Origin: Promicromonospora iranensis
Lineage (GTDB): Bacteria; Actinomycetota; Actinomycetes; Actinomycetales; Cellulomonadaceae
Assembly: GCF_028994805.1 (NCBI RefSeq)
Contig: NZ_JAJQQP010000001.1
Span: 351,464-415,463, forward strand
Direction of reading: 5' to 3'
DNA: 64,000 nucleotides
The translations under genes were made by a program, and so were the position numbers. Under the pieces are notes generated by a model. It made no database searches, had not been told where the DNA came from, and saw nothing but the letters and a program-made list of their open reading frames with translations. Shown here piece after piece: positions 2,788-16,392 of the stretch. The first letter of the stretch is position 1, and each line of letters starts with the position of its first letter.

Positions 2788-5139
2788 ATGCTCATTGGAA
2801 AGCGCAGGTATGTGATCGGGGTGCTGTCCCCGGTGGTCGGCGGCTACTACTTCGGGCGGGTGCTCGCCGGGATCGCGCGCACCGTCCGACCGGACGGGCA
2901 CCGCGTGGTCGCCGTCCAGACCTATCCGGCGGACCTGGAACGCGAGCAGTTCCCGGACCGTCCGCCGGGCACGGCGTCCGTCAGCCTCGGACAGGTCGAC
3001 GGCGTCATCGTCATCACCTCGGCGGTGAACGAGGCGACACTGCTCCGGATCGAGGACGACGGCACGCCGATCGTGCTCATCAGCGGGCGCGCCACGGGCG
3101 TCGACGCCCCGGTCGTGACCCCGGACAACGAGGGCGGCACCCGCGCGGCCGTCGAACACCTCATCGCGCACGGGCACCGGGAGATCGGGTTCCTCGGCAG
3201 CCTCCGGCAGGCCGACATCGTCCAGCGCCACGAGGCGTACCTCGCCACGCTCCTCGCCCACGGCATCACGCCACGGCCCGAGTGGCTCTACCGCACCGCC
3301 GACAACCAGGAGGCGAGCGCGGCCACCGTCGCGCAGGCCCTCGTCGGCGGCCCGGGACTGCCCACGACGGCGACGGTCGCCGCGACGGACCGCAACGCGA
3401 TCGGGTTCTCCCGCGCGCTGCGCGTCCAGGGGCTGTCCCTCCCGGGCGACCAGGCGATCGTCGGCTTCGACCACTCCGAGGCGGGCGCGCGCGTGCGGCC
3501 CCGGCTCGCGTCGGTGGACCCGCACCACGACCAGGTCGGGGAGCTCGCGGTCTCGCTGCTGCTCGCCCGGATCCGGGGCGAACGCGTGGCGGGCCAGCAC
3601 CTGTCGCGCTCGACCCTCGTCACCCGCGAGTCGTGCGGCTGCCTCGACGCGCGGGCCGGGGCGCTCGTCGGGGGCCTGCCCGCACAGGAGGGGTCGACGG
3701 CCTGGCGACGGCTCGGCGAGGTCGCACGCGCGACGTTCGACGGGGCGGAGGCCCGCCTCGGGCTCGGCGCCGACCTCGACTCCTGGCTGCGGGGCGTGCA
3801 GCGCGTGTTCCGCAGCGCGGCAGCACTGGGTCAGCCGCCCACGCAGGCCACCCTCACCAGTCTCGCCGAGAGCACTCGTGCGCTGCGGCCGCACCCCGAG
3901 GCCCTCGAACAGCTCATCCCCGCGCTGCGGTCCGTCGAGGATGAGTTCCGCGAGCAGGTCAGACGGGGCCAGGTGCCGACCGTCCCCGCGGAGCGGCCGC
4001 ACGCCGTCGGCGTGGCCGGGGCCACTGCCGGGGCCACGGGCCAGCCCGGGAGCGCCGGTCCGCCGGGCGTCGTCGCCGGCAGCGACCCCACGACGAAGGC
4101 TGCGCGCGCTCCCAGCCGCGCAGCCCGCGCCCGCGCGGTCACGCACACCGCCACGGACGTGCTCGTCGCCCTCAGCGCGGGATGCACACAGACCCTGCTC
4201 GCCCGGTCCGGCAGGCTCGAACGGACGATCACCGACCAGTACGAGCTCGACCTCGACCTCCTGCACGCCGACGGCCGGGCGATCCGGGCACTCACCTGGC
4301 TCCCGCGCGGCCACCCCGGCCCCGCCACGCTCGCCCTGTGGTCCGACGCCGAGAGTGCGCCGGTGCCCGGCACGGCGCCGGCGTCCGCCCGGATCAACGG
4401 CGCGCGGACGCTCGAGATCGTCGGCACCACGGCGGTGTCCCGCAAGGCGACGGCTCTGGTGGGCACCCACGTGCCGGTGAGCGAGTTCCCGCCCCCCGCG
4501 CTGGCCGGCGAGGGCGTCGTGTTCGTGGTGCCCGTGACGTTCGACCAGAGCGACTGGGGCATGCTCGCGATCGGCGGCGGCGTGGACATCCATGCCACGA
4601 GCTCCCGCGACAAGTACGACCACTGGGCGGCCATGGTCGCCGTCGCGCTCGACCGGGAGGACCGCCTCACGTCGCTGCAGCGGCAGCAGGCCGCGCTCGC
4701 GGAGGCCGCGAGCCGGGAGCGGGCGCTCGTGCTCGACCTGCGCACGGAGGTCGAGCGCAACGCCCTGGTCCAGGACGTGGCGCTGGAGGGCACGTGGGAC
4801 TGGGACATCGCCACCGGCCAGGTCTTCTACTCCCGCACCTGGCGCGCCCTGGTCGGTCTGCCCGACGACGCCTCGTGCACCGGCATCGAGGAGTGGACCG
4901 GACGGGTGCACCCGCAGGACGTGCGGGCCGTCCAGACGGCCATCGCCCGGCAGCTCGCCGGGGCTGCCGAGCCGCTCGACCTGGAGCACCGGCTGATCGC
5001 CGCCGACGGTCGCGAGATGTGGGTCCGTTGCCGGGCCACCACGGTGACCGACGACGCCGGCGTCCGCGCGCGCATGATCGGCGTGCTCATGGACGTCACC
5101 GGCATGCCGGCCCGGGAACGCCGGGGGGTGGCGCGCTGA
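2788..5139 (+). CDS. LacI-like ligand-binding domain fused to PAS sensor, no output domain
   Basis: Protein of 783 aa. Residues about 1-290 are a LacI-type periplasmic-binding fold (VLSPVVGGYYFGRVLAGIA, later IVGFDHSEAGARVRP) but without a DNA-binding helix-turn-helix and without signal peptide, so it is cytoplasmic. A helical and Ala/Gly-rich middle follows (about 290-460), then a region that could be GAF-like, a coiled coil near 640-665, and a PAS domain at about 675-780 (WDWDIATGQVFYS to GVLMDVTG). It stops right after the PAS domain: no GGDEF, kinase or phosphatase domain follows. LacI-PAS-GGDEF proteins exist in related bacteria, so output may have been lost or supplied by a partner. A TTG at 2755 is an alternative start. 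It is divergent from the lacI gene. Confidence 0.8.
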   Translation: MLIGKRRYVIGVLSPVVGGYYFGRVLAGIARTVRPDGHRVVAVQTYPADLEREQFPDRPPGTASVSLGQVDGVIVITSAVNEATLLRIEDDGTPIVLISGRATGVDAPVVTPDNEGGTRAAVEHLIAHGHREIGFLGSLRQADIVQRHEAYLATLLAHGITPRPEWLYRTADNQEASAATVAQALVGGPGLPTTATVAATDRNAIGFSRALRVQGLSLPGDQAIVGFDHSEAGARVRPRLASVDPHHDQVGELAVSLLLARIRGERVAGQHLSRSTLVTRESCGCLDARAGALVGGLPAQEGSTAWRRLGEVARATFDGAEARLGLGADLDSWLRGVQRVFRSAAALGQPPTQATLTSLAESTRALRPHPEALEQLIPALRSVEDEFREQVRRGQVPTVPAERPHAVGVAGATAGATGQPGSAGPPGVVAGSDPTTKAARAPSRAARARAVTHTATDVLVALSAGCTQTLLARSGRLERTITDQYELDLDLLHADGRAIRALTWLPRGHPGPATLALWSDAESAPVPGTAPASARINGARTLEIVGTTAVSRKATALVGTHVPVSEFPPPALAGEGVVFVVPVTFDQSDWGMLAIGGGVDIHATSSRDKYDHWAAMVAVALDREDRLTSLQRQQAALAEAASRERALVLDLRTEVERNALVQDVALEGTWDWDIATGQVFYSRTWRALVGLPDDASCTGIEEWTGRVHPQDVRAVQTAIARQLAGAAEPLDLEHRLIAADGREMWVRCRATTVTDDAGVRARMIGVLMDVTGMPARERRGVAR

Positions 5140-5193
5140 GCGCCGTCGGCGGGGCGAGGCCGTCGTGCTGGGGCGAGCGGCGCGGGCGCCGTC

Positions 5194-6483
5194 CTACGGG
5201 ACGGTGACCTCGCCGCGCTCCGCCCGGAGCGCGATGTCCGTGCGGTGGTGCGAGCCCTTGAGGCCGATCTTCGCGACACCCTCGTAGGCCCGACGCCGGG
5301 CGTCCGCCAGGTCGGTGCCGAGCGCCACGACGGAGAGCACGCGCCCGCCCGCGCTGACCAGCTCGTCGGCGGTCGAGAGGCCCGTACCGGCGTGCAGCAC
5401 GTGCACCCCGGGGAGCGACTCGGCGTCCTCGATGCCCGTGATCGGGTCACCGGACCGGGCCAGCTCGGGGTAGCCCTCGGACGCGACGACCACCGTCACC
5501 GAGGCCTCGGGACGCCAGCGCAGCGGCTCGAGCTCGGCGAGCCTCCCACGAGCCGCGGCGAGCATGACCTCCGACAGCGGAGTCATGAGCCGGGCCAGCA
5601 CGGACTGGGTCTCCGGGTCGCCGAAGCGCGCGTTGAACTCGACCACCCGCGTGCCCCGGCTGGTGAGCGCGAGCCCGACGTACAGGACGCCGGAGAACGG
5701 CGTGCCGCGGCGTGCCATCTCGTCGATCGTGGGCTGGGCGACCCGGCTCACGACCTCGTCGACGAGGCCCGCCGGCGCCCAGCCCAGCGGGGTGTAGGCG
5801 CCCATGCCGCCCGTGTTGGGGCCCTCGTCGTCGTTCCCGACGCGCTTGAAGTCCTGCGCGGGGACCAGCGGGACCACCGTCACCCCGTCGCACACGCAGA
5901 ACAGGGAGACCTCGGGACCGTCGAGGTACTCCTCGACCACGACGCGACCGTTCTCGTGGGACAGGCAGGCCTCGCCGTGCGCGAGCGCGGCCTCGCGGTC
6001 GTCGGTGACGACGACACCCTTGCCGGCCGCCAGCCCGTCGTCCTTGACCACGTACGGCGGGCCGAACGCGTCGAGCGCGGCGGCGACCTCCGTGGCGTCC
6101 GTGCACACGTGCGCCATGGCGGTCGGCACGCCCGCGGCGGCCATGACCTCCTTGGCGAACGACTTGGAGCCCTCGAGCCGGGCCGCCTCGCCGGACGGCC
6201 CGAACACGGGCACGCCCGCCGCGCGGACGGAGTCCGCCACGCCCGCGACCAGCGGCGCCTCGGGCCCGACGACGACCAGCTCGGCGCCCACCTCCTCGGC
6301 CAGCGCCGCGACCGCCGTCCCGTCCAGCGGGTCCACCGTGTGCCACGTCGCCAGCCCGGCGATACCCGGGTTCCCCGGCGCCGCGTGAAGCTCGTGGGCG
6401 GCGGCCCCGGACGCGGTCTCCCGGTGCAGGGAGTGGATGATGGCGTGCTCGCGGGCACCGGTCCCGATGACGAGGATCTTCAC
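5194..6483 (-). CDS. purD: Phosphoribosylamine-glycine ligase
   Basis: GAR synthetase, second step of de novo purine synthesis: joins glycine to 5-phosphoribosylamine with ATP. 429 aa, normal length. N-terminal MKILVIGTGAREHAI is the family start, GPEAPLVAG follows, and the ATP-grasp domain has KDDGLAAGKGV near residue 150 and the metal-binding end VVEFNARFGDPETQ near 290. The GTG start lies 32 bases after purA on the same strand with no strong Shine-Dalgarno, so the two probably form an operon. Confidence 0.97.
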   Translation of the reverse strand: MKILVIGTGAREHAIIHSLHRETASGAAAHELHAAPGNPGIAGLATWHTVDPLDGTAVAALAEEVGAELVVVGPEAPLVAGVADSVRAAGVPVFGPSGEAARLEGSKSFAKEVMAAAGVPTAMAHVCTDATEVAAALDAFGPPYVVKDDGLAAGKGVVVTDDREAALAHGEACLSHENGRVVVEEYLDGPEVSLFCVCDGVTVVPLVPAQDFKRVGNDDEGPNTGGMGAYTPLGWAPAGLVDEVVSRVAQPTIDEMARRGTPFSGVLYVGLALTSRGTRVVEFNARFGDPETQSVLARLMTPLSEVMLAAARGRLAELEPLRWRPEASVTVVVASEGYPELARSGDPITGIEDAESLPGVHVLHAGTGLSTADELVSAGGRVLSVVALGTDLADARRRAYEGVAKIGLKGSHHRTDIALRAERGEVTVP

Positions 6484-6515
6484 TGTGGCAGAGGGCTCTC
6501 TAGGTGGGTGCGGGC

Positions 6516-7808
6516 TCAGCGCGGGTGGATGAGGTCGTGGACGGGGATGATCTCGTCACGCTTCGGGCCGACGCCGATCGCGGAGATCCGGGTGCCGGAC
6601 ATCTCCTCGAGCGTCTTCACGTAGGCCTGGGCGTTCGGCGGCAGGTCCTCGAAGGCACGGGCCTTGGAGATGTCCTCCCACCAGCCGTCGAGCTCCTCGT
6701 AGATCGGCTTCGCGTGGTGGAACGCCGTCTGGTCGGTGGGCATCTCGTCGTAGCGGACGCCGTCGACGTCGTACGCGACGCAGACCGGCACCTTCTCCAT
6801 GCCGGTGAGCACGTCGAGCTTGGTCAGCACGATGTCGGTGAGCCCGTTGATGCGGGTCGCGTAGCGGGCGATCACGGCGTCGTACCAGCCGGTGCGGCGC
6901 GCGCGGCCGGTGGTGACGCCGTACTCCCCGCCGGTCTTGCGCAGGAACTCGCCCTTGTCGTCGAACAGCTCGGTGGGGAACGGCCCCTCGCCGACGCGGG
7001 TCGTGTACGCCTTGATGACGCCGATCACCGAGTCGATCCGCGTGGGCCCGACACCGGACCCGGTCACCGCGCCGCCCGCCGTCGCGCTGGAGGACGTCAC
7101 GAACGGGTAGGTGCCGTGGTCGATGTCGAGCATCGTCGCCTGGCCGGCCTCGAACAGGACGGTCTTGCCCGCCTGGATGGCCTTGTCCAGCTCGACGGCG
7201 GTGTCCGTGACCATGGGCCGGAGCCGGTCGGCGTACTGGAGCAGCTCGTCGAGCGTCTCGTCCACCGTGATGGCGCGCCGGTTGTAGACCTTCACGAGCA
7301 GGTGGTTCTTCTGGTCGAGCGAACCCTCGATCTTGGCGCGCAGGATCTTCTCGTCGAACAGGTCCCACATGCGGATGCCGACGCGGTTGATCTTGTCGGC
7401 GTACGACGGGCCGATGCCCCGTCCCGTGGTGCCGATACGGCGCTTGCCGAGGAACCGCTCGGTCACCTTGTCGATGGTGCGGTGGTACGGGGCGATGATG
7501 TGCGCGCTGCCCGAGACGAGCAGCCTGGACACGTCCACACCGCGCTCGATCAGGGCGTCGAGCTCCTGGAACAGGACCTCGATGTCGACGACCACGCCGT
7601 TGGCGATGACCGGCACCACGCCCGGCGACAGGATCCCGGACGGCAGGAGGTGCAGCGCGTACTTCTCGTCGTCGATGACGACCGTGTGCCCCGCGTTGTT
7701 CCCACCGTTGAACTTGACCACGTAATCGACGCGGGAGCCCAGGAGGTCCGTCGCCTTTCCCTTGCCCTCATCGCCCCACTGGGCCCCGACGAGCACGACG
7801 CCTGGCAT
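6516..7808 (-). CDS. purA: Adenylosuccinate synthetase
   Basis: GTP-dependent joining of IMP and aspartate, first committed step to AMP. 430 aa, full length. The N-terminal [11 protein letters not shown] loop with catalytic Asp, [11 protein letters not shown], the IMP-site [14 protein letters not shown] near residue 130, and the GTP-binding TKLDVLTG near 330 are all intact. A GGAGA site precedes the ATG. Upstream lies DUF3151, downstream purD. Confidence 0.98.
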
Positions 7809-8958: not shown

Positions 8959-11439
8959 CTACTTCGGCGGGGTGGGCTGGCGGCGGAGCTTCGCCCAGAC
9001 CAGCTTGCCGGAGCCGGACGGGCGCCAGCCCCACTCGGCCAGCCGGTCCACGATCTGCATGCCGAACCCGCCCAGGCGGTTCGGGTGCCCGTCGGTGGCG
9101 ACCGGCGGTGCCGGGTTGTTGTCCTCGACCTCGATGCGCAGGCCGTCGCCCGTGTCGTACAGGCGCAGCGCGATGTGGCCCCAGCCGTGCAGCACACCGT
9201 TCGCCACCAGCTCGGAGACCACGAGCTCCGCCTGCGCGGACTCCTCGATGCCCCACGCCTGGCAGGTGCGCAGCACGGCGTGGCGGGCCCGGCCGATCGA
9301 GGACGGCTCGCTCGGCAGCATCCAGCGCCGCCACCGCGGCGACAGGGCGGTCTCCCCGGCATCACCGGTCGGGTCGGGGATGCGGACGACGACGATCGCC
9401 ACATCGTCCTCCGGCGCGTCGGCCAGCCGCGAGAGCAGTTCCTCGCCCACTCCGGCGGCGTCGCGCGCGGTGATGGCCGACGCCGTCTCCAGCAGCGCCT
9501 CGAGGCCCAGGCGCAGGGAGCGGTCGCGCCGCTCGATCAGGCCGTCCGTGTAGAACAGCAGCGTGTCGCCCGGCCGGAGGCGCGCCTCGCCCGTGGTCCG
9601 CTCCCGCGAGCCGAAGCCCACGAGCGCGCCACCGCCCTCGTCCAGCTTGATCACCTCGCCTGCGCGCAGCAGGAGGGGCGGGAGGTGCCCCGCACGGGAG
9701 TAGCCGATGGTCCAGACGTCCGGCTCCTCCTCGCGCTTCAGAGAGGCGTACACCATGCTTGCCGAGCGCGGGATGCCCATACCGGCCACGAGCTGGTCCA
9801 CCCGCTCGAGCACGCGGCTCGGCGTCGACAGCTCGAAGGCGTACGAGCGCACCACCGACCGCAGCTGCCCCATGGTCGCGGCGGCCTCGACGTCGTGCCC
9901 GACCACGTCGCCGATGACCAGGCCGACGAGCTCCGGCGAGATCTGCAGGACGTCGTACCAGTCGCCGCCGACCTGCGCGTGCTCGGCGTTCGGCGCGTAG
10001 TAGGTCCACACGTCGAGCCCGGCGACGTCGGCCTGCTCGGGGAGCATGGCGCGCTGCAGGGTCTCGGCGAGGCGGTGCTCGCGGGCGTACATGCGCGCGT
10101 TGTCGATGGCGCTGCCCGCGCGGCGGGCCACCACCTCCACGACCGTGCGCAGCGTGTCGGGCTCGTCGGCCTCGACGTAGTCCCCTGGCTCGTCCTCGTC
10201 GGGGACGATCACGACCAGCCCGAGCACGTCCCGCCGTCCGGCGACGGGATGTACCACCACCGAGTCGGGCGCCTTGCCGAGATCGTCGGCCAGGCGCAGC
10301 GTGAGGTCACGCTGCAGCCAGCCCGACGCCGAGTGCGGCGCGTGCGGGATGTCGAGGTGCAGGGTGACGGGGCCGTCGAGCACGCCGTCGAGCACGTCCT
10401 GCACCGAGTCCACCACCTCGAGGATCGGCATGGGGCCCGTGGTGACCGAGTCGCCCAGCGCATCGGTCTGCGGCCTGCGGCGCGCGGTCTTGTCCGCGAT
10501 GTTGTCGCCCTCGATGTACCGGGCATGGCGGCGCCCGCGCCCGCTCGGCGGTGCCGCGACGTCGACGCCCGCCGCGTGCTTGAGGCCGTCGTCGTTCACG
10601 TAGAAGCCCGCCCAGCGCACCATCGACTGGAGCAGCTCCGCGATGTCGCGCAGGGCGTACGGGTACTCGAGGTCGGTCAGGATCTCGGTCGTCTGGGCGA
10701 TGAGGTCGAGGTCCTCGCGCTGCTGCCGCTCGACCTCGAGGCTCGCGAGCTGCGCGGCGTGCCGCTCCATGTGGTCGGAGACGTCCACGCTGAACCCGAC
10801 CCAGTGGGTGATGCGGTCGCTGTGGCCCGCGCGGGCCGGGGTGAGCGTGAGCTGGGCCCAGCCGTGGGTACCTCCGCGCAGGTGCGACCGAACCGTCGCG
10901 TGCACCTCCTGGCCCGCGTTCACCAGCTCGGTCATGCGCTCGAGGTCCTGCGGCTCGACGAGCATCTCGCCGAGCCTGCGCACCGTGTACCCCGCGAAGT
11001 CGGTGAACCGCACGCCGGCGTAGTGCTCGAAGGCGCTGTTGGCCCAGAGCATCGGCATGCCGTCCTCCGTGGGCCCGGTGAGGAAGACGGGGATGCCTAC
11101 GTTCACCGCGGCGCGCAGCATCACGTCGCCGATCGACGGCGGCAGGGTGCGCGGGATGCCGGTGCCCGACGTGTGCCGGCGCGCCTCGGCAGCGGGCGTC
11201 CGGTAGGCGCCGAGCGGCGCGTTCTTCGGCGGGATGCTGGGGGGCACGCTCGCGGCAGGGGTCACGGGCCGGCCGGCGTCGAAGCCGTTCCCGTTCGCCG
11301 TCCCGTTCGCCCTTCCGTTCGACGTCCCGTCGGCCCTGCCGTTCGACGCCTCGCCCTGGATCGGACCGAGGCCGAATACGGAGAGGCCGGGGTGCCGCGG
11401 CGGCGGAGAGGACGGTGGTAGACCGGATGAATCGGTCAA
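8959..11439 (-). CDS. PAS-GAF-SpoIIE phosphatase with C-terminal RsbW-like ATPase
   Basis: 826-aa cytoplasmic signalling protein. A low-complexity Asn-Gly-rich N-terminus is followed by a PAS domain (about 115-230), a GAF-like region (about 270-450), a PP2C/SpoIIE phosphatase (about 465-680) with metal-site motifs GGDWYDVL, IGDVVGHDVEAA, FYTDGLIE and EDDVAIVVV, and a HATPase (about 695-825) with ELVVSELVANGVLHG and GGFGMQIVDRLAEWG. It can thus both dephosphorylate STAS antagonists and act as an RsbW-like kinase (inference from domains). Start: TTG at 11439 has GGGAGGG five bases upstream; an ATG at 11490 in the same frame has none. It lies between two STAS genes, converging on the first and divergent from the second. 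Confidence 0.9.
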   Translation of the reverse strand: MTDSSGLPPSSPPPRHPGLSVFGLGPIQGEASNGRADGTSNGRANGTANGNGFDAGRPVTPAASVPPSIPPKNAPLGAYRTPAAEARRHTSGTGIPRTLPPSIGDVMLRAAVNVGIPVFLTGPTEDGMPMLWANSAFEHYAGVRFTDFAGYTVRRLGEMLVEPQDLERMTELVNAGQEVHATVRSHLRGGTHGWAQLTLTPARAGHSDRITHWVGFSVDVSDHMERHAAQLASLEVERQQREDLDLIAQTTEILTDLEYPYALRDIAELLQSMVRWAGFYVNDDGLKHAAGVDVAAPPSGRGRRHARYIEGDNIADKTARRRPQTDALGDSVTTGPMPILEVVDSVQDVLDGVLDGPVTLHLDIPHAPHSASGWLQRDLTLRLADDLGKAPDSVVVHPVAGRRDVLGLVVIVPDEDEPGDYVEADEPDTLRTVVEVVARRAGSAIDNARMYAREHRLAETLQRAMLPEQADVAGLDVWTYYAPNAEHAQVGGDWYDVLQISPELVGLVIGDVVGHDVEAAATMGQLRSVVRSYAFELSTPSRVLERVDQLVAGMGIPRSASMVYASLKREEEPDVWTIGYSRAGHLPPLLLRAGEVIKLDEGGGALVGFGSRERTTGEARLRPGDTLLFYTDGLIERRDRSLRLGLEALLETASAITARDAAGVGEELLSRLADAPEDDVAIVVVRIPDPTGDAGETALSPRWRRWMLPSEPSSIGRARHAVLRTCQAWGIEESAQAELVVSELVANGVLHGWGHIALRLYDTGDGLRIEVEDNNPAPPVATDGHPNRLGGFGMQIVDRLAEWGWRPSGSGKLVWAKLRRQPTPPK

Positions 11440-11583
11440 AATGCCCTCCCAACGGTATCTCTTGCTCGAGGTGCTGTTCCAGCAGGACATTCAACCGTAG
11501 ATTGGGACGGTCCGAGATCTGAACCTCAACCTCTATCATCGGACCGACACAGCGGCACGACCACTGCTCCCGGAAGGAGAACC

Positions 11584-12051
11584 GTGCAGGACGGAACTTA
11601 CGACCCCCCGCGCGGTCCGCAGGGCGGGAGCCCCCAGGACCCCGGCCATCAGACCCCCGAGATCGGCGATCCCGCGAGCATCCACGTCATCGTGGGTCGC
11701 TCACGTGCTCGGATCGTGCTCTCCGGGGAGATCGACGCCGACATCGGCGGTGATCTGCACGAGGCCACGGCCGCGGCCGAGGAGTCACGTCTCCCGGTCG
11801 AGATCGACGCGCACCATGTGACCTTCATGGACTCGTCGGGCGTCGCGTTCCTCGCGCGCCTCGCGAGCCGCAGCCCGCACCGAGTACGCGTGCTGCGCGC
11901 ACCGCCGACGGTGCGCTTCCTGCTGGAGGTGACCCGGATCGGTGACCTCCTCGACATCGTGGACGAGGACCCGGGCTTCGAGCTGGACGACGACGGCCCG
12001 TCCGGCCCGCCGTCGGGCGGCGCTCCGACCCCTGCGGGTGTGGGCGGCTGA
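11584..12051 (+). CDS. STAS domain anti-sigma factor antagonist 2
   Basis: 155-aa protein with a Pro/Gly-rich N-terminal 35 residues, then an STAS domain (about 35-130) containing IVLSGEIDADIGGDL and HHVTFMDSSGVAFL, with the phosphorylatable Ser in MDSSG. GTG start with a strong GGAAGGAG site. It is divergent from the SpoIIE-type gene, with a 7-bp inverted repeat GGTCCGA/TCGGACC (11509-11545) between them. Together with the first STAS protein it is a likely substrate of that phosphatase-kinase. The acidic C-terminal tail is not conserved in the family. Confidence 0.87.
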   Translation: MQDGTYDPPRGPQGGSPQDPGHQTPEIGDPASIHVIVGRSRARIVLSGEIDADIGGDLHEATAAAEESRLPVEIDAHHVTFMDSSGVAFLARLASRSPHRVRVLRAPPTVRFLLEVTRIGDLLDIVDEDPGFELDDDGPSGPPSGGAPTPAGVGG

Positions 12052-13354: not shown

Positions 13355-14041
13355 TCAGGGTAGCGGGGGCGTCTCGCCGTCGAGGAGCATGTCCCCCGCT
13401 CGGGCCTTCGCCTCGTCCGCGCCGACCTGCCACAGGTCGGCCAGCCGCTTGGCGTCCTCGTAGGTGTACCCGGCCTCCCGGAACGCGTCCTGCTCCGCCA
13501 CGGTGGGGAAGCGCAGCTCCTCGTCCGACCCGTGCGAGCCCGGCGCCACCGGGACGGCGTTACCGTCGAGGATCAGCTGCCCGGCGCGCGCCTTGGCCTC
13601 CAACGAGTCGACGTTCCACAGGTCGCGGAGCGCCACCAGGTCCCCCGCCGTGTACTCGGCGCCCCAGAACGCGTCGTGCTGCTCGCGGGTGTAGCCGTCC
13701 GGCATAGCGGACCACTCGACGCCGACAGCCTGTGCGACACCGTCGACCGCGGCCGCGAAGCCCGTGTAGGGGTTCGCCGCCGCCGCGGCGCCCGCACCGA
13801 CCACGCCGAGCGTGGACGCGACGACACCGGTGAGCGCGAACGTGCCCGCACGCCGCACGAACGGGGTCACCACGGCGTTCCGGCCGTCGGCCGCCACGGC
13901 GATCGTGGCGGCGATCCGCTGAGCTGTGGCGGCGGTGGCCGCGGCGTCGGGCTCACGTGCGCGCAGGGCCGCACCGATCTGCTCGGCGAGCTCGTCGTGG
14001 CCGGGTTCACCCTCCGGCCGGTCGGGACGGTACTGGTTCAT
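13355..14041 (-). CDS. Membrane-anchored two-repeat protein, putative anti-sigma factor
   Basis: 228 aa. A charged cytoplasmic N-terminus (1-60), one membrane segment (about 66-89), then an extracytoplasmic part with two 40-residue repeats (121-160 and 183-222), each ending in a KARAGx(I/M)LLDG-like block: EAKARAGQLILDG and EAKARAGDMLLDG. The repeats resemble SHOCT-type helical hairpins (inference). The extracytoplasmic part, including ANPYTGF and GVEWSAMPDGYT, is clearly paralogous to the secreted protein at 15741. The ATG overlaps the sigma factor stop by four bases (ATGA), so expression is coupled. Position and topology suggest it holds the sigma factor inactive; no zinc-type anti-sigma motif is present, so this is an inference. 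Confidence 0.7.
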   Translation of the reverse strand: MNQYRPDRPEGEPGHDELAEQIGAALRAREPDAAATAATAQRIAATIAVAADGRNAVVTPFVRRAGTFALTGVVASTLGVVGAGAAAAANPYTGFAAAVDGVAQAVGVEWSAMPDGYTREQHDAFWGAEYTAGDLVALRDLWNVDSLEAKARAGQLILDGNAVPVAPGSHGSDEELRFPTVAEQDAFREAGYTYEDAKRLADLWQVGADEAKARAGDMLLDGETPPLP

Positions 14042-14634
14042 CGCTTCTCCAGGTGGGTCGGGGTGGTGCGCCGGAGAGTGGCCAGGGCGCGCGCGGCGTG
14101 GGAGCGGACGGTGGCCGGCGACGTGCCGAGCACGGTCGCGATCTCGGCGTCGGCCAGCCCTTCGTAGTACCGCAGCACGAGCACCGTGCGCTGCCGCGGA
14201 GGGAGCTGTGCGAGGCGGTGCCACATCGCGTCCTTCTCCGCATGCCCCTCAGCGGGGTCACCCGCGGCGCCTCCGTGCCGGGCCAGCACCTCGTCGCCGG
14301 TGGGCTGGATCATGCGCACGTGCCAGCGACGACGCCACGACAGGTGCTCGTTGGTGACCATGCGCCTCAGGTACAGGTCGGGGCGATCCGTCAGGACGAT
14401 CCGGCGCCACCGCTGGTGGGCACGCAGCAGCACCTCCTGGACCAGGTCCGCGGCCGTGTGCTGATCCCCGACGAGGACCGTCGCGTAGCGGATCAGCCCG
14501 GGCAGGTGCGTCCGCACCAGCTCGTCCAGCGTTCGGGCCGGGTCGCCCTCGTCGGCACCGCCTGCGGGCACCTGCGCCTCCACCCGTGGTGTCGGTGAGC
14601 TGCTCGGGCCGACGGCCTGCAACCAGGTCGTCAT
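14038..14634 (-). CDS. SigE-family (ECF-like) RNA polymerase sigma factor
   Basis: 198 aa. Region 2 lies at about residues 40-110 (YATVLVGDQHTAADLVQEVL and DLYLRRMVTNEHLSWRRR) and region 4 at about 140-190 (LPPRQRTVLVLRYYEGLADA then IATVLGTSPATVRSHAARAL, a clear helix-turn-helix). No region 1 or 3, as in the SigE/SigJ-like extracytoplasmic-function group. The start overlaps the amidoligase stop (ATGA) and the end overlaps the next gene, so it is the third of four coupled genes. It probably drives its own operon under some envelope signal, but no promoter copy elsewhere in the window supports a consensus. Confidence 0.93.
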   Translation of the reverse strand: MTTWLQAVGPSSSPTPRVEAQVPAGGADEGDPARTLDELVRTHLPGLIRYATVLVGDQHTAADLVQEVLLRAHQRWRRIVLTDRPDLYLRRMVTNEHLSWRRRWHVRMIQPTGDEVLARHGGAAGDPAEGHAEKDAMWHRLAQLPPRQRTVLVLRYYEGLADAEIATVLGTSPATVRSHAARALATLRRTTPTHLEKR

Positions 14635-15737
14635 CGCCCGGCCCCCGCCGTCGTCAGGGCCAGCAGCGCCTCTTCCGGGTCGTGCGCCGCCGCTCCGTCG
14701 GGTCGCGGTATCGGCGTGTCGTCGAGGCACCGCAGCAGCAGACGCTCGACGAGCACGGCCCTCCCGACGATGTCCGACGCGTCCAGCGCGCCGGGCAGGA
14801 GGCGCACCTCGACGGTGTCGCGGACGGGGCTCGCGGCGACCAGCTGCGTGAGGTTCACGTCGGCGTACTTCGTCAGGCCGAGCCCGCGCGCGGCAGCACG
14901 CAGCTCGGCCCAGGACTGGTCCTCCCGCTCCACGAGCCGGACGAGCTCCCCGGGCAGCGGCGCCAGACGCCGGCACGCCGCATTGGTGCCCAGCGCCTCC
15001 CACAGCGGCTCACGCCAGTGGCCGAACAGCCGGACCAGGTTGGCGAACGCCGGGGACCGCCGGAAGGACGCGCCGTCCAGGTGCAGGTGGACCGCGGCCT
15101 CGGCAGGAACCGTGAACCCGAGGTCGCGCGCGGGCGTCAGCAGCTCGTCGAGCCGCCGGCCGTGGTCCGTGGTGATCGGTGGCGTGATGACCTCGCAGGG
15201 GCGCTCCCGGCCTGCGGGCAAGGGCATCACGACGGCGACGGTGGCACCCGTGGCATCGTTCACCCGCGCAGACCCGCCCCGCAGCTCGACCTGGGTGCCG
15301 AACAGCTCGGCGACCGGCGCCAGGACGTCGGCCAGCGCCGCGTAGGGGTCCGCGCACCGCTCGATCAGGCGCAGCAGGCGGGGCTCGTCGCACAGGACGC
15401 GGTACCAGCCGCTGTGCCCGGGCCGCGCGGTGGTGCCGGTCAGGTCGGACACGAGGGTGATGTCGTCCACGAGCCGCGCCACGGGTGCACCGGCACCGTC
15501 CACCACGTCGAACGCGGGGGACAGGTGCCGGAACACCCCGACGCCCGGCACCGGTGACGGCTCGCTGTCGGTGTGGAAGGACCGGTGCACCCGGCCGCCA
15601 CCGCGAGCGGCGACGGCGTCCGCGAGCGTCTGCCGGTCCGAGCCGGCGGGCGCGAGCAGCTCGATCTCGAAGCCGATGCGCGAGGTGAGGGTGTTGATGG
15701 TCGCCTCCTGGCGAGTCGTCAGCGGTGCCGGGCGCAC
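14631..15737 (-). CDS. Amidoligase family enzyme (glutamine-synthetase-like COOH-NH2 ligase)
   Basis: 368 aa. The fold is recognised from RIGFEIELLAP at the N-terminus, PCEVITPPITTDHG near 190, AAVHLHLDGASFR near 220 and DTVEVRLLPGALDA near 315, the acidic and His/Arg positions of the amidoligase_2 family. These enzymes use ATP to make amide bonds between carboxyl and amino groups of peptides, proteins or small molecules (family knowledge); the substrate here is unknown. No signal peptide. The GTG at 15737 starts three bases after the upstream stop, with no Shine-Dalgarno. A perfect AGGAGG occurs later, five bases before ATC codon 14 (15698), which is not a normal start. It lies between two paralogous repeat-protein genes and before a sigma gene. 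Confidence 0.85.
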   Translation of the reverse strand: MRPAPLTTRQEATINTLTSRIGFEIELLAPAGSDRQTLADAVAARGGGRVHRSFHTDSEPSPVPGVGVFRHLSPAFDVVDGAGAPVARLVDDITLVSDLTGTTARPGHSGWYRVLCDEPRLLRLIERCADPYAALADVLAPVAELFGTQVELRGGSARVNDATGATVAVVMPLPAGRERPCEVITPPITTDHGRRLDELLTPARDLGFTVPAEAAVHLHLDGASFRRSPAFANLVRLFGHWREPLWEALGTNAACRRLAPLPGELVRLVEREDQSWAELRAAARGLGLTKYADVNLTQLVAASPVRDTVEVRLLPGALDASDIVGRAVLVERLLLRCLDDTPIPRPDGAAAHDPEEALLALTTAGAGR

Positions 15738-15740
15738 GGA

Positions 15741-16295
15741 TCAGCTGTCGGCCGGCGTGGCCGAGCCTGCGGAGCCCAGGGGCAGCTCCTCACCGTCGAG
15801 CACCATCTGGCCGGCGCGGGCCTTCGTCTCCACGAACTCGGTGTCCCACAGCGCGCTCAGGGTCTCGACGTCCTCGGCCGTGTGACCGGCGTCGAGGAAC
15901 GCCGCGATCGCCGTCTGCTCGTTCGCCGGCAGCTCGGGGGTGGTGTGCGTGCCGGGCGCGAACGGGAGTGCCTCGCCGTCCAGGAGCATCTGACCGGCGC
16001 GGGACTTGGTCTCGGTCTCGTCGAGCGACCACAGCTCCTGCAGCTCGATCAGGTCCTCGCCGCTGTACTCGGCGGCCCAGAAGGCCTCGTACTGCGCCTG
16101 GGTGTAGCCGGCGGGCATGTCGGACCAGTCGACGCCGACGGCGTGCACGGTGGTACCGACCACCTGACCGAAGGCCGAGGTCGGGTTGGCCGCGGCTGCC
16201 ATGCCGGCACCGACGACGCACAGGCCGGTGGCCGCGACGCCGATCGCGGTGAGGCGGAGGGTCTTCGAGCGGAAGGTGCGGGTGCTGCTGGTCAC
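15741..16295 (-). CDS. Secreted two-repeat protein, first gene of amidoligase operon
   Basis: 184 aa, unknown family. Residues 1-36 are an export signal (basic start, hydrophobic core, AAAA just before ANPTSAF). The mature part has GVDWSDMPAGYT and two 40-residue repeats (about 69-108 and 131-169) ending in ETKSRAGQMLLDGE and ETKARAGQMVLDGE. The invariant Lys, Arg-Ala-Gly and Asp-Gly of these ends recur in the membrane-anchored paralogue at 13355. Start GTG at 16295 with GGAGGT four bases upstream. Immediately followed by the amidoligase gene (gap of three bases). It may be the substrate or signal of the system; that is inference. Confidence 0.75.
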   Translation of the reverse strand: MTSSTRTFRSKTLRLTAIGVAATGLCVVGAGMAAAANPTSAFGQVVGTTVHAVGVDWSDMPAGYTQAQYEAFWAAEYSGEDLIELQELWSLDETETKSRAGQMLLDGEALPFAPGTHTTPELPANEQTAIAAFLDAGHTAEDVETLSALWDTEFVETKARAGQMVLDGEELPLGSAGSATPADS

Positions 16296-16392
16296 GTGGA
16301 CCTCCAGGTGCGTGGGATGTGCTTGCCCTCTTAAGACGTCGCTCACCCCGCCTGATGTGGAGTCCAGACCGCCACGACTTTTGTCGGCCGGA

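Follow-up and report, generated by a model that had tools for sequence, protein, structure and literature searches.

In the RsgI/SigI systems of Clostridium thermocellum, the membrane anti-sigma factor has an outer module like that of the secreted products of its sigma factor and the sigma gene is autoregulated (PMC4711584, PMC12203970); the outer modules of the RsgI anti-sigma factors are described as carbohydrate-binding (PMC4711584). Graspetides follow another scheme, in which a ribosomal product, sometimes with repeated cores, is encoded beside an amide-forming ligase (PMC8939145). We analysed a window (the whole stretch of DNA under study, 64,000 nucleotides of contig NZ_JAJQQP010000001.1) of Promicromonospora iranensis, a member of the Cellulomonadaceae. 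It contains a four-gene operon for a predicted exported protein with helical repeat units (A), an amidoligase (B), an extracytoplasmic function (ECF) sigma factor (C) and a membrane-anchored protein with the same unit (D). We favour, at about an even chance, the reading that the operon is an autoregulatory sigma/anti-sigma circuit dedicated to the exported repeat-module protein and its amidoligase. No description of such an operon or ligase-module pair was found in the literature searched, the scope of which excluded most subscription papers.

The operon, the coupling of its genes and the paralogy of the first and last genes are real (Table 1). Recomputed from the sequence, the A-B gap measured 3 bases, and B overlapped C, and C overlapped D, by 4 bases each (ATGA). 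The coupled four-gene layout proposed in a first-pass annotation of the letters alone was borne out, with all four genes on the minus strand. The paralogy of A and D that it had noticed also held, residues 64-227 of the D protein (P0004) being 51% identical to A. Its calls of an amidoligase and an ECF-type sigma factor agreed with matches above cut-off to Amidoligase_2 (PF12224; 47.8 bits against a cut-off of 22, E 2.3e-12, residues 19-332 of B) and to the SigE-family model TIGR02983 (152.1 bits against 141.55 for C). It had described two 40-residue repeats; there are indeed two units, and it is their length that has to be corrected, to about 50 residues modelled as three helices. In the relatives, for which start codons were chosen manually and M was written for the first residue, the 4-base overlap was present between B and C in 19 of 22 loci and between C and D in 19 of 22.

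Table 1. Positions of the four genes and the promoter candidate in the window.
Feature	Position	Strand	Remark
Gene A, predicted exported protein, two helical repeat units	15741..16295	minus	GTG start, hydrophobic N-terminal segment
Gene B, Amidoligase_2 enzyme	14631..15737	minus	GTG start; signal peptide absent by eye
Gene C, SigE-family ECF sigma factor	14038..14634	minus	TIGR02983 above cut-off
Gene D, membrane-anchored repeat protein, predicted anti-sigma factor, two units outside	13355..14041	minus	
ECF-type promoter candidate of the operon, CTCCACA-N17-CGTC	16335..16362	minus	just outside the span first annotated

Of 150 genomes drawn from the family, 24 had the amidoligase and 27 had A-like units, and the 24 were all included in the 27. 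Unit genes thus occurred in 24 of 24 amidoligase genomes versus 3 of the 126 others (Fisher p 7.5e-25), and the co-occurrence in relatives that the first-pass annotation had proposed as a test was observed. The order A-B-C-D was kept on one contig in 20 of the 24. Nine named relatives were found: seven Promicromonospora, Myceligenerans pegani and Cellulomonas triticagri. A contig end cut the locus of G064 after C, and that of G130 was split over two contigs. In G131, A was displaced by about 7 kb upstream and the sigma/D part was overlapping and apparently damaged, with a doubtful D frame, and G099 had only a truncated A and the amidoligase. The profiles were built without A of G099 and G031, D of G131, and C of G131, G091, G064 and G130b.

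Three genomes (G128, G053 and G142) had units only. The first part of the orphan unit gene of G128 (L082, 6091-6723 minus) matched A of G105 with 95.6% identity over 113 residues, and its last 61 residues were 85% identical to D and 55% to A of the same genome; the promoter pattern described below was retained before it. It looks like an A/D recombinant from which B and C were removed by recombination between the paralogues, and the paralogues flanking the cassette may therefore delete the cassette in this way. The unit gene of G142 begins at the end of a 1.7-kb contig and the rest may be missing from the assembly, and G053 has a remnant. In this remnant (L083, 2492-2722 minus), a Thr replaced the near-invariant lysine of the unit, and no amidoligase was found in the genome.

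To search beyond the family we used an amidoligase profile of 24 sequences with a mean column identity of 76%, the scope of which is the amidoligases of this clade. At E up to 1e-10 it had matches in 21 genomes among 396 drawn from the order, and 17 of the 21 lay outside the first family. Among 396 genomes drawn from the phylum, at E up to 1e-5, it matched only the present genome and G782, which belongs to another class. The 30-unit profile, applied to the phylum draw, likewise returned this genome and G782, besides a chance-like match of 23 residues in G711. A unit open reading frame (ORF) was located directly 5' of the amidoligase in all 18 further loci. In total, a unit gene was near the amidoligase in 42 of 42 genomes and directly 5' in 41 (the exception being G131), with or without a sigma gene.

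A sigma gene was nearby in 11 of the 18 further loci (L150, L152, L153 and L159-L166). In L154, L155, L156, L157, L158 and L176 no such gene was found within the fetched flank, where the upstream flank of L156 and L157 was only about 1 kb and the unit gene of L158 was cut by the contig end; nor was there one near the pair in L151, in which a weak match lay 4 kb away on the opposite strand. Because the amidoligase and the unit protein occur as a pair without a sigma gene nearby, B seems, on this gene distribution, to be partnered with the unit protein and not with the sigma circuit. The gene order was that of the window in L150 and L166; it was sigma, anchored unit protein, secreted unit protein and amidoligase in L160-L165, and sigma, one anchored unit protein and amidoligase in L152, L153 and L159. 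The sigma factors of a second family (L153, L159-L165) scored much lower with the window-type profile, and we judged separate sigma lineages from these profile scores. They are nevertheless of the SigE family: with TIGR02983, the L163 sigma scored 164.4 bits, and the trimmed sigmas of L152, L150 and L166 scored 138-141, just below the cut-off.

A 52-column model of the unit aligned 153 units, of which 148 were distinct sequences, from 44 loci, with one to five units per protein. The counts came from a profile of 30 hand-picked units, and hence well-conserved units are favoured in them. W26 was present in all 153 units, K34 in 151, D18 in 149 and P48 in 149 of the 149 units reaching that column, followed by L22 (98%), G38 (97%) and G44 (95%); the LPxxP tail, past the last helix, was also strongly conserved. 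K34 is the sole conserved lysine of the unit, the next commonest lysine column having 37 of the 148 distinct units. The structure model of D had three helices per unit, with a predicted local distance difference test score (pLDDT) of 85-94 for the block and lower values for the rest of D, and no known fold stood out for the unit in the structure comparisons. A had no Pfam or NCBIfam match at E up to 1 and no match to PDB sequences at E up to 10, and the matches of D in the same kinds of search were chance-like only.

A hydrophobic segment, defined by a 17-residue mean hydropathy of at least 1.5 (a threshold of our own), was present ahead of the first unit in 69 of 73 unit ORFs, and the units are therefore predicted to lie outside the membrane, either free or anchored. 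The four without it were the doubtful one of G131, the truncated one of G099, the contig-cut one of L158 and one gene of L166 (1.22). Two loci had unusual unit proteins. In L152 (about 4704-5666), an anchored protein between the sigma gene and the amidoligase had five units, the highest number observed. In L166 (of G283), the anchored protein lacked the near-invariant lysine in two of its three units, and the amidoligase gene (6002-7017) was split into two frames.

The structure model of B was nearest to GCL, Dop, YbdK, glutamine synthetase (GS) and PafA, and thus resembled the GS/GCL-type fold; acidic and histidine residues of the motifs were conserved. G22, E24, E26, H217, H219, D221, N295, E310 and R312 were invariant in the 24-row amidoligase alignment, and we take these to be the active-site motifs. 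B is probably a cytoplasmic enzyme that forms ATP-dependent amide bonds. To our knowledge, the substrates of Amidoligase_2 enzymes are mostly unknown. B may modify the unit proteins before they are exported, with K34 as the first candidate site. More tentatively, an amide or isopeptide bond would be made on the near-invariant lysine of each unit, which would make A a multi-site modified protein, and D would report the state of modification or of the target to the sigma factor. The lysine might be joined to an acidic residue close by, for which the near-invariant aspartate is one candidate, or to a small carboxylate.

The D gene directly follows the sigma gene and overlaps it, and the protein is predicted to have an N-terminal part inside, one membrane span and an outer domain. 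Eight sigma genes of this genome passed the TIGR02983 cut-off, C included. For five of the other seven, a script search found a gene whose start lies at -4 to +2 bases relative to the sigma stop; for the other two it found no such partner gene. In the five partners, a single membrane segment at residue 40-57 separates a short N-terminal part from a large outer one, and D, with its membrane segment at 67, is predicted to have the same architecture. The N-terminal part of D was conserved in the relatives around a DxLxxRIxxALRSR-like pattern. Position and architecture thus support D as the anti-sigma factor of C, which is the role that the first-pass annotation had assigned to the anchored protein. 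Elsewhere in this genome (L181 and L185, C29:161524-164409), two SigE-family sigma genes were arranged in tandem about 2 kb apart, each followed by a one-span membrane protein.

The pattern CT[CG][CA]ACA-N15-18-CGT[CT], with an observed spacing of 16-17, occurred before A in 23 of 23 cassette loci, G099 and G131 being left out of this test. It ended 38-43 bases ahead of the A start in 22 of them; the 23rd, G090, has a doubtful start model. A mononucleotide shuffle gave an expectation of 0.0008 per sequence for the pattern, which had been derived from those sequences. The presence of a conserved promoter before A supports autoregulation. In L166, CTCCACA-N16-CGTT preceded the first gene. A different pattern, GGCAAC-N17-CGTC, was read before the sigma gene in 8 of 8 loci of the second family (L153, L159-L165). 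All 6 loci with a separate secreted gene had it ahead of that gene as well; two of these loci (L160 and L163) had been inspected before the pattern was fixed. It was absent before the repeat gene in the 2 loci where this gene directly follows the sigma gene. In the 162,212 bases of L160-L165, both strands included, it occurred 13 times, and 12 of these occurrences were at the sites just named. The gene after the sigma gene in the second family again encoded an anchored unit protein, with a cytoplasmic part of different sequence. Because the secreted gene there has an ECF-type promoter of its own, the secreted protein looks like a sigma output, and judging from the promoter sequences, the genes for the secreted protein and the amidoligase appear to be among the outputs of the sigma factor in two lineages.

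Taken together, the circuit that we favour might work as follows. D would hold C at the membrane by its cytoplasmic N-terminus, and the outer part of D, composed of the same three-helix unit as A, would monitor whatever the units of A meet outside. If, for example, A were scarce or its binding partner free, the units of D could bind or D could be cut, and C would be released. The released C would then transcribe its own operon, giving more A, amidoligase, sigma factor and anti-sigma factor. B would act in the cytoplasm and be dedicated to the unit proteins, and the most likely chemistry would be an ATP-driven amide bond on them before export, with the single near-invariant lysine as the leading candidate. 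The binding of C by D is inferred from the architecture of D, and the state of modification might, as the first-pass annotation proposed, set the activity of the sigma factor.

Some observations, given in this and the next paragraph, weigh against the circuit or against B acting on the units. The near-invariant W, K, G and P may merely hold the fold of the unit; the enzyme and the unit are on opposite sides of the membrane once A is exported; and K34 was retained in G128 and in G142 (two units each), where no amidoligase was found. The main rival to unit modification is that B modifies an envelope component, such as a peptidoglycan precursor or teichoic acid, that the exported units bind the modified envelope and that D senses the state of the envelope through its units. 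We hold this to be possible and no better than tentative. It agrees with the predicted export of the units in 69 of the 73 ORFs, with the apparent co-regulation of the secreted unit protein and the enzyme and with the LPxxP tail, which is conserved as in a binding surface, and sigma factors of this kind often respond to envelope stress. However, the unit had no similarity to any known wall-binding domain in sequence and structure searches, and when 35 loci were clustered, no flanking gene family was common to more than 6 of them. The families next to the amidoligase (c3, c5) were confined to one genus, and those shared across families (c7, c8, c10-c12, c14, c18, c20) were present in 2-5 loci each, at varying distances, and resembled, when inspected by eye, widespread families (antiporter, ABC, chemotaxis, two-component and others) rather than envelope enzymes. 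B might instead make a small diffusible amide or peptide that is bound by the outer units, in which case D would read this self-made signal and free the sigma factor, and A would buffer it. The position of B in a sigma operon is in favour of this, as are its fold neighbours GCL and YbdK, the reactions of which act on small molecules. We regard it as unlikely, because some loci have the enzyme and the unit protein but no sigma gene within the fetched flank, and a signal would have no reader nearby there, and because no transporter or further biosynthetic gene was common to most loci.

Concerning regulation, the promoter patterns were read off the upstream regions in which they were tested and are partly circular. 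The strict pattern had its single match in this genome at this operon; it was found in 68 of the 150 family genomes, many of them without the cassette, at about the rate of a reversed control, and its uniqueness here is therefore weak evidence. The looser pattern was not enriched in this genome (14 matches against 15 in the control), and no target of C beyond the cassette was found by pattern. L152, which has a sigma gene, lacked the second-family pattern, and neither pattern was present in the 750 bases before the units in the loci without a sigma gene (L151, L154-L157, L176). The closest D of a given A was the D of the same genome in only 6 of 19 cases, in a comparison that left out G131, G099, G031 and the genomes without both A and D. 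In addition, D matched no Pfam anti-sigma domain, and its model ahead of the membrane had two helices (15-28 and 33-52) with pLDDT under 60, compared with the four helices of a class I anti-sigma domain (PMC7406223). These two features of D would suit a rival in which C is controlled by some other means and D, instead of being an anti-sigma factor, duplicates A as a structural protein and has kept a longer leader. This rival appears very improbable to us in view of the recurrent 4-base C-D overlap (19 of 22 loci), the comparable architecture after five of the seven other SigE-family genes and the anchored unit protein that follows the sigma gene in the second family as well, despite its different cytoplasmic sequence.

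As a whole, the earlier interpretation is partly supported. Its suggestion that the secreted protein is a mimic or ligand of the anti-sigma factor is unlikely to be the whole role of this protein, because in several loci the unit protein and the amidoligase occur with no sigma gene within the fetched flank and because, in the second family, the secreted gene is preceded by an ECF-type promoter of its own. The results link a clade of ligases to an uncharacterised helical module, the two being together in 42 of 42 amidoligase genomes from five families and one further class, and in many of these genomes the pair adjoins a sigma switch with a sensor made of the module that the product itself contains. 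This offers Amidoligase_2 enzymes a protein that may be their substrate and that has, in each unit, a single lysine as the candidate site. If the modification of the lysine were true, it would represent a post-translational modification system of a new kind, exceeding in size the cores of ribosomally synthesized and post-translationally modified peptides and wired to its own transcription switch. Promicromonospora is a cultivable soil genus. In another part of the window, genes for a SpoIIE-type phosphatase with sensor-like and ATPase-like parts (8959-11490, minus strand) and a divergent STAS-domain protein adjoining it (11584-12051, plus strand) were recognised by eye, as in partner-switching regulation.

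The locus resembles the RsgI/SigI systems in that A and D share the unit and A lies behind a conserved promoter, an outer module being common to the sensor and the secreted product. It differs from them in having a SigE-type ECF factor (TIGR02983) in place of SigI and, in place of a carbohydrate-binding module, a three-helix unit that is uncharacterised, and in that an amidoligase belongs to the circuit. No RsgI model was among the Pfam and NCBIfam matches of D at E up to 1, although a model of the RsgI N-terminal domain exists; by its sequence matches, D is not a member of the RsgI family. The other SigE-family sigma/partner pairs are similar in the sigma family, the close coupling and the single-span partner with a short N-terminal part. 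What sets the present locus apart from them is that the outer unit of D is shared with a co-transcribed secreted protein and that an amidoligase adjoins. The likeness of B to the Pup ligase PafA and to Dop is a resemblance of its modelled fold only; unlike these and the other ligases of the GS/GCL fold, B has an exported repeat protein as its probable partner, and no Pup-like tag was identified, the unit proteins themselves not having been tested as tags. With graspetides the locus has a comparable logic, a ribosomal product beside an amide-forming ligase, but B belongs to PF12224, has a GS/GCL-like model and had no ATP-grasp match, and the product is a folded module with a signal peptide or membrane anchor instead of a short core peptide. 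The comparison suggests that a sigma/anti-sigma pair with a product-like sensor is of a known kind, and that its coupling to a ligase-module pair is the new part.

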